Below, in pieces: positions 1 through 4,033 of a DNA stretch of 35,193 nucleotides. The notes under the pieces are model-generated. The model had not been told where the DNA came from. It ran no database searches and saw only the letters and a program-made list of their open reading frames with translations. The stretch's first letter is position 1, and the number at the start of each line of letters is the position of its first letter. A program made the position numbers and the translations under genes. Source of the stretch: Acidiferrobacteraceae bacterium (GTDB taxonomy: Bacteria > Pseudomonadota > Gammaproteobacteria > Acidiferrobacterales > SZUA-150); contig QIGL01000028.1 of NCBI GenBank assembly GCA_003228915.1, positions 1 through 35,193 of the forward strand, written 5' to 3'.

Positions 1-152
1 AGGGAAGCTTTGATCAATTGTCATCTCGACCGCAGTGGAGAGATCTTAAGCCACGGAACTTCAGTAGTATCAGGAAGTGACAAGATTCCTCCGCTTCGGT
101 CGGAATGACAAACATGTCGGAATGACAGTCATATGCTGATTAGAGCTTCCCT
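1..152. repeat. MITE-like nested palindromic repeat
   Basis: The outer ends are inverted copies: the first 16 bases (AGGGAAGCTTTGATCA) match the complement of 137-152 at 14 of 16 positions. Inside lies a second inverted pair, 19-47 against 82-110, matching at 23 of 29 positions. That inner arm is of the TGTCATTCCGACC...GGAGGAATCTT type, a motif I know as a dispersed palindromic repeat in many bacterial genomes. A further short piece of the arm (GTCGGAATGACA) recurs at about 116-127. No coding sequence is seen. The nested structure fits a non-autonomous mobile repeat or a REP-like element. The left end coincides with the window edge, so the element may extend further. Confidence 0.65.
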
Positions 153-272: not shown

Positions 273-1613
273 CTACTTACGCGTCATTTCTTCAACCAGC
301 ATACTCAAGCGGGCGATCTGCGGCCAGTCATGGGTCACGATATCCTGGGAATGGGCCAGGTGGTTGCGCAGGGATTCAAGTCGTTTAATAGTTTTTTTCG
401 CCACGCTTTTTGATTCCATGCCCAGGCGATCCAGTGATACCGGGTCCTGGAGTAAAATTTTGGCCTTATCGGAGAGTTGTAAGCAATCGACTAAATCGCA
501 ATACACATTGCGCCGTTGACGTTCAGTCTGAATCTCACGTGCCTTTTCCAGGCGATCGTCGGTGAGTGCCTGTTGCCAGCTATTATCAGGAAAACGCTCC
601 AGGACTAATTTCAGCAGTTGCTGTTCTAAAATAGTGACAATGCCAAACAACCACATACGCGCCATTGGTTTGTTCACATCATCTCGACAAATTACGCCGG
701 TAATGTTGTTCAATACTGTCACAAAACAATAATCATGGCGGGTTAACACGTGGATGACATCGCCGAAGGTGGCCGAGCCATTGACGACCTGATCAGCAGT
801 GAAGTGTTTAATTTTATCGGCACACAAACCCGCACTTAAATCAGACCCGCGAATATACCCCTGCACCGTACCACTAATGCGGACACTGGCGACTTCACGT
901 CGGTGTGTTTTAAGGGCACGCTTGACCTGTTCGCAAGAGGCATCATCATCAAAGGACAACAGGCCTTCGGCAAGATCTTTGGCGGTAAAAATTTCGACGA
1001 ACATTCGTCGGAAATAACGATCATCCAAACCATGCAACACTGCGCCATTAGAGTCCGGGTCCACGGACCCAGATTGATCCGCCTCTTTGGTGCTGAGTTG
1101 GCCGGTATACTTGGCATGGAGTTTACTCGCCCGCTTAAACAAGGCGGCATCACCATCACCAAGGACTTTTAACAGCGCGCCCATTTCGTTTAGATAAACC
1201 CGTGCAAAACGTTCATCATTCTTGCGAATGTCTTTACAGTTATCGATCAAATCTGCCAGCTTGACTGTCTTGGCACGTACCGACGCCTGTGAGCTATGGT
1301 TTCGATCTATCTCTTTTCGCTGTGCGCGATTCCCGTCACTGGCCATACTGACATCAGTTAATTCTTCAACCATCTCGGCCACCGCAGCGCCAAAATTCTT
1401 TTCAATATCATCGAGGGTGGCCGGGGTGTCTTCAACCGTATCGTGTAACCAGGCTGCGGCGATCATTTCAGCATCATCCGCCACTTCCTCAACCAGTTTT
1501 GCCACCGCGGCAAGGTGAGAATCGTAGGGTTGATTGGTGTACTTGCGACGTTGGCCAATGCGCTGATGGGCATTGGTGGCAAACTCACGCGCTCGATCAA
1601 TTAGATTAGTCAT
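273..1613 (-). CDS. HD (MESH1/SpoT-like) + CBS + HEPN-like fusion protein
   Basis: This 446-residue cytosolic protein has three parts. Residues 1-170 form a SpoT/MESH1-type HD hydrolase fold with the metal and catalytic set visible: H33, H57-D58, E61-D62, D121 and N125. Known members hydrolyse (p)ppGpp or, in MESH1, NADPH. Residues about 205-315 resemble a pair of CBS units, which in other proteins bind adenine nucleotides; the second ends in a GVICRDDV motif. Residues about 320-446 are helical and carry R416-N417-xxx-H421 (RNHLAH), the pattern of HEPN ribonucleases. No synthetase or TGS domain follows the HD part, so it is not a RelA/SpoT. The HD call is firm, the CBS call likely and the HEPN call tentative. 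It stands alone on its strand, with a hairpin directly after the stop. Confidence 0.8.
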   Translation of the reverse strand: MTNLIDRAREFATNAHQRIGQRRKYTNQPYDSHLAAVAKLVEEVADDAEMIAAAWLHDTVEDTPATLDDIEKNFGAAVAEMVEELTDVSMASDGNRAQRKEIDRNHSSQASVRAKTVKLADLIDNCKDIRKNDERFARVYLNEMGALLKVLGDGDAALFKRASKLHAKYTGQLSTKEADQSGSVDPDSNGAVLHGLDDRYFRRMFVEIFTAKDLAEGLLSFDDDASCEQVKRALKTHRREVASVRISGTVQGYIRGSDLSAGLCADKIKHFTADQVVNGSATFGDVIHVLTRHDYCFVTVLNNITGVICRDDVNKPMARMWLFGIVTILEQQLLKLVLERFPDNSWQQALTDDRLEKAREIQTERQRRNVYCDLVDCLQLSDKAKILLQDPVSLDRLGMESKSVAKKTIKRLESLRNHLAHSQDIVTHDWPQIARLSMLVEEMTRK

Positions 1614-2239: not shown

Positions 2240-2557
2240 TATATTCTTCTTTTGTAGTTATAATTTATTTGATAGAGTGAGAAGGGCCGCACTATAACTT
2301 ATAGAGATAAGGGTGATTAAAATAATACAAAATCTGGTCATGCGGTTAGTTCTCCAATTTATCTAAGTGGGTATCCACAAGGCCGGGCTCTCAATTATTG
2401 CTAGTATTCTTAATATAAGGATATTCAGAAGAGTATATTGAATACAGCAGAATTGTTCAAACCAGTATATATTTTCAATATTGGTCATTTACTTAAGCCT
2501 GTATTATCCGTCATAATGCACATTGCTAGTTAATCAGTAATCAATGGAGTGAAAACA
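2240..2557. other. Divergent intergenic region
   Basis: This AT-rich spacer separates two divergently transcribed genes and should hold both promoters. I could not assign a -35/-10 pair with confidence. A weak hairpin (CCAGTAT/ATATTGG, 2462-2484) lies upstream of the phosphoesterase gene. No small gene is evident. Confidence 0.5.
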
Positions 2558-4033
2558 ATGACCGAAAATACACTAACTGCCACTATTGCCCGACTAAAAG
2601 ACATCTTAGAAGATACCCTGGAAAACAAACCAGGTACAACCAGCGATGAAAATTCCTTAGAAGAATTTTTTACGTATCTGGTGGATAGTGAAAAACATGC
2701 ACTGGCGCTGATCGAATACGTTAAACACCCCAAGGGACCAAAACCCACCATACCAGCTGAGGGTAGCATTGAAGCTGGTTTCGTACTTTACTGGATTCAC
2801 TGGCCACCCGATGCTTTTAAAAAGTTACTGGACAAGCATAAATATCTTAAATTTTTTTGGAAAATCCTCCAGGATGAAGCACCTGCAACACATATTATAA
2901 CAAAAGACTACAATTTCATTATCGAAAAAATAAAGAAGGAATCAGTTCCCTGGGATGACGGCACACTGATTGGCACTAAAAAATATGAACAACTGGATGA
3001 AGGCTGGTTGTGGGCCGCATTAAACTATGCGATTAATATTAAGTTTCCAAAAACCATTCACCCATTTCCGAAAAATAAACCACACCAGGGTGATTTGTGC
3101 GCCAAATCAGGTAGCGGTGATCCGACCCTCGCCATTATCGGTGACTGGGGAACGGGTTTTTATAAGGACAGCAACGGGGCACATTGTCCGGCAAAAAGAG
3201 TAGTCGAAGATATAAAAACGCGTAAGTTCGATTACTTAATACATTTGGGCGATGTTTATTATGCGGGCACTGACCTGCGTCCAACGCCCGGTGAGGAATC
3301 GGACAATTTTATTAAAATCTGGCCTGACCAGGGAGCAGGGCGCAACTTTACCTTAAACTCCAATCACGAAATGTATGGCGATGCCCACGGATATTTTGAT
3401 CAGGCCCTGGCCCAGGACAAACCATTCAAGGTTCAAAATGGCAGTAGTTATTTCGCACTTACCTATACGCCGTGGCTGGTATTGGGACTGGACAGTGCTT
3501 ACTACTCCGATGCAAAAAATGGTCGCAAATTTTATATGAATGGTGCCATTGGTACCGCCAGGCATACCCAGCAAACAGACTGGCTCGAGGGATTTCGCGG
3601 ACACAACGGCCCGGTGATGGTGATGACCCACCACAACCCGGTTGCCCTGACAACGGGTATAAGCAATGAACTGTTTGCACAGGTTGAGAACGCTTTAGGT
3701 AAAATGCCCGATCTTTGGTATTGGGGTCATGTCCATAACGGTATTGTTTATGACAAGTTACATGTGGGTAACGAAAATAATCACGTGCCCACCAAGGGCC
3801 GCTGTTGTGGCCATGCCGCAATTCCTTTTGGTAATGGCTGGGGTCTGGAGCAAAATTCAAATATCCCTTACTACGCTCACACACCTGACCCGACTTTTGC
3901 GGCGGATTCACCACGGGTCTTAAACGGTTATGCTACCGTGACCCTCCATGGCGATGGTGGTTTTACCGAAAATTTTTATGAAGTCGGGAATAAAAACGCA
4001 GTGTGGTATAAAAAATGGCCTGCGGGCGGGTGA
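2558..4033 (+). CDS. Calcineurin-like metallophosphoesterase, purple acid phosphatase type
   Basis: The chosen ATG at 2558 sits 8 bases after a GGAG ribosome site; a GTG at 2549 is possible but overlaps that site. The protein is 491 residues. The catalytic half, from about residue 188, shows the dimetal motifs in order: GDWG (195-198), GDVYY (231-235), NHE (269-271), THHN (357-360) and GHVHNG (390-395). These match the purple acid phosphatase pattern GDxG, GDxxY, GNHE, xxxH, GHxH, except that serine replaces the first glycine of GNHE. The first 185 residues match no domain I know. No signal peptide or membrane segment is seen, unlike many purple acid phosphatases, so it is predicted to be cytosolic. 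The substrate is unknown. It converges with the next gene, with a 32-bp gap. Confidence 0.85.
   Translation: MTENTLTATIARLKDILEDTLENKPGTTSDENSLEEFFTYLVDSEKHALALIEYVKHPKGPKPTIPAEGSIEAGFVLYWIHWPPDAFKKLLDKHKYLKFFWKILQDEAPATHIITKDYNFIIEKIKKESVPWDDGTLIGTKKYEQLDEGWLWAALNYAINIKFPKTIHPFPKNKPHQGDLCAKSGSGDPTLAIIGDWGTGFYKDSNGAHCPAKRVVEDIKTRKFDYLIHLGDVYYAGTDLRPTPGEESDNFIKIWPDQGAGRNFTLNSNHEMYGDAHGYFDQALAQDKPFKVQNGSSYFALTYTPWLVLGLDSAYYSDAKNGRKFYMNGAIGTARHTQQTDWLEGFRGHNGPVMVMTHHNPVALTTGISNELFAQVENALGKMPDLWYWGHVHNGIVYDKLHVGNENNHVPTKGRCCGHAAIPFGNGWGLEQNSNIPYYAHTPDPTFAADSPRVLNGYATVTLHGDGGFTENFYEVGNKNAVWYKKWPAGG

Follow-up and report, generated by a model that had tools for sequence, protein, structure and literature searches.

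An SAH-type HD domain, a CBS pair and a probable Swt1-like HEPN domain joined in one conserved bacterial protein

The window, a 35,193-nucleotide stretch of the genome of an Acidiferrobacteraceae bacterium, carries near its first end a gene for a 446-residue protein with an N-terminal HD domain, a pair of CBS repeats and a C-terminal helical domain. The features of the locus are the following.

273..1613, minus strand: HD-CBS-CBS-HEPN gene with an ATG start, encoding 446 aa; homologues begin at the same Met.
1098..1613, minus strand: SAH-type HD domain of the PaSpo/phage-SAH group (residues 1-172), assigned from Pfam HD_4, the match of the model to MESH1 (Z 24) and the tree.
1440..1445, minus strand: H57-D58, the metal-binding dyad of the HD domain, invariant in 33/33 sequences.
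999..1097, minus strand: flexible linker (residues 173-205), with low pLDDT around 177-194 and relaxed dN/dS.
669..998, minus strand: CBS pair (residues 206-315) with the second-site loop R310-D311-D312, assigned from VIA (Z 12.5-13.6) and the conservation of R310 and D312.
276..668, minus strand: probable Swt1-like HEPN domain (residues 316-446), assigned from a sub-threshold Pfam match, hhalign to a Swt1 HEPN set and the model.
351..368, minus strand: R416-N-H-L-A-H421, the Rx4H motif of the HEPN domain, with R and H invariant in 33/33 sequences.
19..110, no strand: palindromic dispersed genomic repeat beside the gene and outside the system, with more than 45 genome copies.

The AlphaFold model of the full protein, computed with 32 sequences, has a mean pLDDT of 85.5. 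Two CBS-type repeats are positioned between the helices of the HD domain and a C-terminal helical bundle, and the linker is disordered at residues 177-194. An earlier note, made from the DNA letters, had proposed that an HD domain, a CBS pair and a domain with an RNxxxH motif are joined in one protein. Pfam searches, the model and residue conservation recovered the three domains, and this reading of the 446-aa protein is correct. An alarmone synthetase domain is absent, as the only Pfam matches of note are to HD and HEPN, and the remainder of the chain consists of CBS and HEPN.

The HD domain matches Pfam HD_4 (E 8.8e-19), and residues 4-163 match MESH1 and the hydrolase domains of RelA/SpoT in a PDB sequence search. 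Model residues 1-171 align with MESH1 at Z 24 and with bacterial SAHs at Z 22-23 (VIA). The catalytic residues align with those of MESH1, and the 33 sequences that cover H33, H57, D58, E61, D62, D121, D124 and N125 show no variation at these positions. The claim of an HD domain with a full catalytic set was thus borne out, the surveyed dyad H57 and D58 included. Its description as MESH1/SpoT-like stood for the fold and the catalytic residues but not for the subgroup, since the domain groups with phage and plasmid SAHs, among them PaSpo. In the tree of HD domains, all fused HDs form one clade (support 96/98); phage SAHs and PaSpo-SSU5 join this clade, apart from MESH1 and long RSH proteins (98/96). 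The long branch of PaSpo, at the margin of the group, leaves its exact place unsure. The nearest stand-alone relatives of the fused HD domain are SAHs of phages and plasmids, with up to 58% identity.

PaSpo, the SAH of Salmonella phage SSU5, belongs to the same HD group as the domain described here, with 42% identity, a common DGNRxxR segment and common catalytic residues; it is, however, a stand-alone SAH without CBS or HEPN. MESH1/HDDC3 has the same fold and catalytic residues, but it is 32-33% identical over the structural alignment, is located on another branch of the tree and lacks the DGNR motif. The DGNRxxR signature, which was noticed in this analysis and is not a published one, is present in PaSpo and in 15 of 19 viral SAHs, and is missing from the MESH1 and long RSH rows. 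Its residues G94, N95, R96 and R99 are invariant in the HD-CBS-HEPN family. The HD domain belongs with the phage and plasmid SAHs, not with MESH1 or SpoT proper. Judging from these sequence relationships, it would hydrolyse an alarmone, (p)ppGpp or (p)ppApp. Hydrolysis of (p)ppApp is known for some SAHs, and the SAH of SSU5 alleviates the toxic effect of FaRel, a toxin that makes ppApp (PMC7644958). PaSpo-SSU5 also removes from tRNA the pyrophosphate added by FaRel2 (PMC11559606). The source genome additionally contains SpoT- and RelA-like genes and, on contig C18, a second stand-alone SAH of the MESH1 type in a 188-aa open frame, about 90 bases from another copy of the dispersed palindromic repeat.

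The CBS pair was recognized mainly by its fold. No Pfam CBS match was found in the 446-aa protein itself, and Pfam CBS matches 7 of the 32 family members, at best with 1.1e-4. In the AlphaFold model, the CBS region is composed of two β-α-β-β-α units, and residues 205-320 match CBS pairs with Z of 12.5-13.6 (VIA), including AMP/ADP/ATP-bound AcuB and AMP-bound PAE2072. The two repeats, these matches and the Pfam hits among relatives uphold the CBS-like pair that had been suggested from the letters. In the region of the S/T-x-x-D ribose-contact motif, R310 is kept in 31 of 32 and D312 in 23 of 32 sequences; the first site is weaker. The pair would most likely sense a nucleotide. A complete pair is not always needed, because a Burkholderiaceae homologue (L036:359-1588) is missing most of the first CBS repeat and has kept the HD and HEPN motifs.

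The C-terminal domain is probably a divergent Swt1-like HEPN domain. The RNHLAH motif occupies residues 416-421, and the homologue survey agrees with its earlier designation as HEPN-type: neither R416 nor H421 varies among the 33 sequences covering them. E330, Q379 and D382 are also identical in all sequences of the set without the frameshifted L021. The Pfam HEPN_Swt1 model matches residues 333-429 of this protein with 17.4 bits, below its cut-off of 27.5, and has matches at E<=0.01 in 25 of the 32 family members, the best being 1.5e-5. In hhalign comparison with genuine Swt1 HEPN domains (E 0.0013), RNxLAH is placed on RNxWAH, with a probability of only 18%. A PDB sequence-profile search with the HEPN region gave no significant match.

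The HEPN part modelled alone has a pLDDT of 86.5. Foldseek with this domain alone gave no match at E<=0.001, and the best VIA-align rows were HEPN-MNT and HepT-MntA toxins with Z of 4.5 and below. The best structural neighbours are of the kind expected for the proposed HEPN-like fold, but the resemblance is weak. At the end of the alignment with 7ae9_D, model residue 113 is paired with chain residue 108; if the alignment is ungapped there, R416 and H421 apparently fall on R102 and H107 of this chain, which are the residues named as mutated in HEPN toxin entries. The toxins (7ae9, 6m6u), whose Rx4H in 7ae9 thus appears to be in the same register, differ from the protein described here in that the Z is only 4.5 and the MNT partner and the CBS pair are not shared. 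The HEPN domain would probably cut RNA.

A search of GTDB contigs identified 33 related loci with 42-87% identity, 31 of them full-length or nearly so. The full architecture is retained by homologues from Gamma- and Betaproteobacteria, Nitrospirota and Desulfobacterota. In one homologue (L021:5983-7332), a duplicated segment is inserted and the C-terminus is frameshifted, which may reflect an assembly error. A CBS-HEPN profile, run against 369 sampled gammaproteobacterial genomes, detected 13 intact HD-CBS-HEPN proteins (source genome included), one HD-less protein, one copy with HEPN in another frame and one fragment. The damaged copies are L160 (G702), with the HEPN part in the other frame, and L161 (G506), a 115-aa piece only. 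The profile also gave weak matches in the CBS region (E ~1e-3 to 1e-5) to frames of ~500 aa, the length of IMP dehydrogenase. A Pfam HEPN_Swt1 search independently recovered five of the fused proteins. The occurrence of the gene is patchy, and among the sampled genomes of the window's order it was confined to the window's own genus. For the pair of the window protein and L007, dN/dS is 0.07 in HD, 0.06 in CBS and 0.05 in HEPN, and 0.23 in the linker; these values indicate purifying selection on each of the three domains. The HD-CBS-HEPN proteins constitute a real, conserved family, more than chance, since the full architecture is kept across phyla and dN/dS is low in the domains relative to the linker.

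CBS-HEPN proteins also exist without the HD domain. They comprise haloarchaeal plasmid proteins, annotated only as CBS, and two gammaproteobacterial proteins, and are homologous to the C-terminal part of the fused protein (hhalign E 2e-40) with LR-x4-H kept. The HD-less gene L124:1342-2220(-) shares 4 bases with the beginning of an HsdM-like gene for a type I restriction methylase, that of L040 has restriction endonuclease genes nearby, and that of L123 adjoins an integrase-like gene. Some HD-less CBS-HEPN genes are thus located in restriction-modification or mobile loci, whereas the HD-fused genes are not. No relative of the CBS-HEPN half was found in viral contigs.

The neighbors of HD-fused genes include transporters, AsmA-like, LpxR and other envelope, metabolic and housekeeping genes, with no recurrent partner. 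The neighborhoods examined have no defence-island context, and the PADLOC matches among the neighbors seem to belong to generic families (helicase, phospholipase D and methyltransferase). Alarmone synthetase genes did not recur among the neighbors, and no toxSAS gene was seen there. A defence role, which the earlier note had considered, gains no support from the neighborhood of the HD-fused family. The palindromic repeat was correctly noted beside the gene, but it has no relation to it: the sequence at 19-110 has more than 45 copies in the genome, many of them 90-98% identical, and is a dispersed REP/MITE-like element, which ruled it out as part of the system. Elsewhere in the window, the frame 2549-4033(+) encodes a 494-aa protein without a Pfam match at E<=1 that contains metallophosphoesterase-like motifs (GDWG, GDVYY and NHE).

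The architecture is not new: fusions of Swt1-like HEPN domains with CBS and HD, namely alr3009 and, in Pelobacter propionicus, gi 118580987, were listed by Anantharaman et al. (2013). They predict the HEPN-CBS-HD proteins to be active and propose a nucleotide-regulated RNA stability (PMC3710099). We liken these HEPN-CBS(-HD) proteins to the present family by architecture alone, as both are made up of HEPN, CBS and an HD phosphohydrolase. The earlier statement that no characterised protein has this order needs to be narrowed: the architecture had been listed, although it is not known to have been characterised. Beyond that listing, the present analysis assigns the HD domain to an SAH subgroup, places the fusions in a single clade, and adds a survey of residues, the extent of the family and a contrast between genomic contexts; the HD type, family extent and residue survey are not given in the accessible part of the 2013 paper (PMC3710099). 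DS-11, a one-protein CBS-HEPN system reported with DefensePredictor in 2026, protects E. coli from phage and needs HEPN residues and Y157 of CBS, a tyrosine predicted to touch adenine (PMC13092281). It shares CBS and HEPN in one protein with the HD-CBS-HEPN family, a link by architecture only; DS-11 was described without an HD domain, and the HD-fused family was not found in defence islands. DNA searches of E. coli genomes with two CBS-HEPN genes, seeking DS-11, gave no match.

We tentatively hypothesize, with somewhat less than even confidence, that the protein is an RNase gated by a nucleotide and carrying, in the same chain, an eraser of that signal. The computed support consists of the domain identities, the invariant active sites, the single clade of fused HD domains and the homology between the CBS-HEPN half and stand-alone CBS-HEPN proteins. 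We infer both activities, the ligand, the target RNA, the dimerisation and the reset role as follows. The CBS pair would bind an adenine nucleotide or an alarmone made under stress or infection. Ligand binding would rearrange the HEPN domains in a dimer and result in the cutting of RNA, perhaps tRNA, by which translation would be slowed. The SAH-type HD domain would hydrolyse the 3'-pyrophosphate of the alarmone, (p)ppApp or (p)ppGpp, and may in this way set a threshold and reset the switch, by analogy with Csm6-type self-erasure. Csm6 and similar CARF-HEPN effectors can break down the cyclic oligoadenylate that activates them. Csm6-type CARF-HEPN RNases likewise combine a nucleotide sensor with a HEPN RNase, and some are self-erasing; the analogy is one of logic, as their sensor and eraser domains are unrelated to those described here, where there is no CRISPR context. 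Against an RNase with its own eraser speak the weakness of the HEPN assignment by sequence (under the Pfam cut-off) and structure (Z 4.5), the substrates tRNA-PP or NADPH that the HD domain could serve instead, the L036 homologue mostly without its first CBS repeat, and the neighborhoods with no recurrent alarmone synthetase.

Alternatively, the protein could be a tRNA quality or counter-toxin enzyme, the HD domain of which would strip 3'-pyrophosphate from tRNA, while HEPN would cut tRNAs that cannot be rescued and CBS would sense the energy state. The closest solved HEPN structures are HEPN-MNT/HepT toxins, and work by Songailiene in 2020 reportedly found that the HEPN toxin of HEPN-MNT cuts tRNA 3' ends. 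In the tree, the HD domain is grouped with PaSpo-SSU5, an SAH that undoes the pyrophosphorylation of tRNA and counters toxSAS toxins (PMC11559606). However, PaSpo is placed peripherally in the HD group, on a long branch, the Z to the HEPN toxins is only 4.5 and no toxSAS neighbor was seen, and we regard such a function as unlikely. It is similarly improbable that the main output is (p)ppNpp hydrolysis under allosteric control by CBS, with HEPN serving only dimerisation or RNA binding. CBS and SAH are adjacent in the chain, and the CBS protein DarB provides a precedent, as it controls a Rel enzyme and turns off its hydrolase (PMC9848473). A specially regulated extra hydrolase is plausible because the host already has SpoT-, RelA- and MESH1-type proteins. 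However, R416 and H421 are invariant, other HEPN core residues are nearly so, and stand-alone CBS-HEPN proteins without HD exist.

We also give a low probability to a DS-11-type protein dedicated to antiphage defence, whose HD domain would counter or sense phage manipulation of alarmones. The validation of DS-11 against phage (PMC13092281), the HD-less relatives in or beside restriction-modification or integrase loci, the closest stand-alone SAH relatives carried by phages, the weak matches of 13 of 32 members to the PADLOC candidate PDC-M34B and the patchy distribution favor this role, but the neighbors of the HD-fused genes serve transport, envelope and housekeeping functions, and the PADLOC matches among them look generic.

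For the favored nucleotide-gated RNase with a built-in eraser, the CBS ligand could be the SAH substrate itself, an adenine alarmone, because some SAHs act on (p)ppApp and a CBS tyrosine of DS-11 is predicted to contact adenine. More speculatively, and with considerable doubt, CBS-HEPN RNases may be activated by alarmones, their ligand being an adenine alarmone, for instance (pp)pApp, and the HD-fused branch may be self-limiting through a phage-type SAH off switch. An alarmone-gated, self-limiting RNase would parallel the logic of CARF-HEPN effectors and ring nucleases. If true, alarmone metabolism and HEPN RNases would be linked in one polypeptide. The fusion makes alarmones a testable candidate trigger for CBS-HEPN defence proteins, and the SAH domain, from a group with tested members, shortlists (pp)pApp, (p)ppGpp and pyrophosphorylated tRNA as candidate ligands and targets.

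In all six haloarchaeal plasmid loci (L040, L041, L176, L177, L178 and L179), a divergent small gene precedes the CBS-HEPN gene. The product of the small gene is conserved, has no Pfam family in the five of six that were scanned, and is 115-118 aa long. It is possible that it is a partner or antitoxin of the CBS-HEPN protein.
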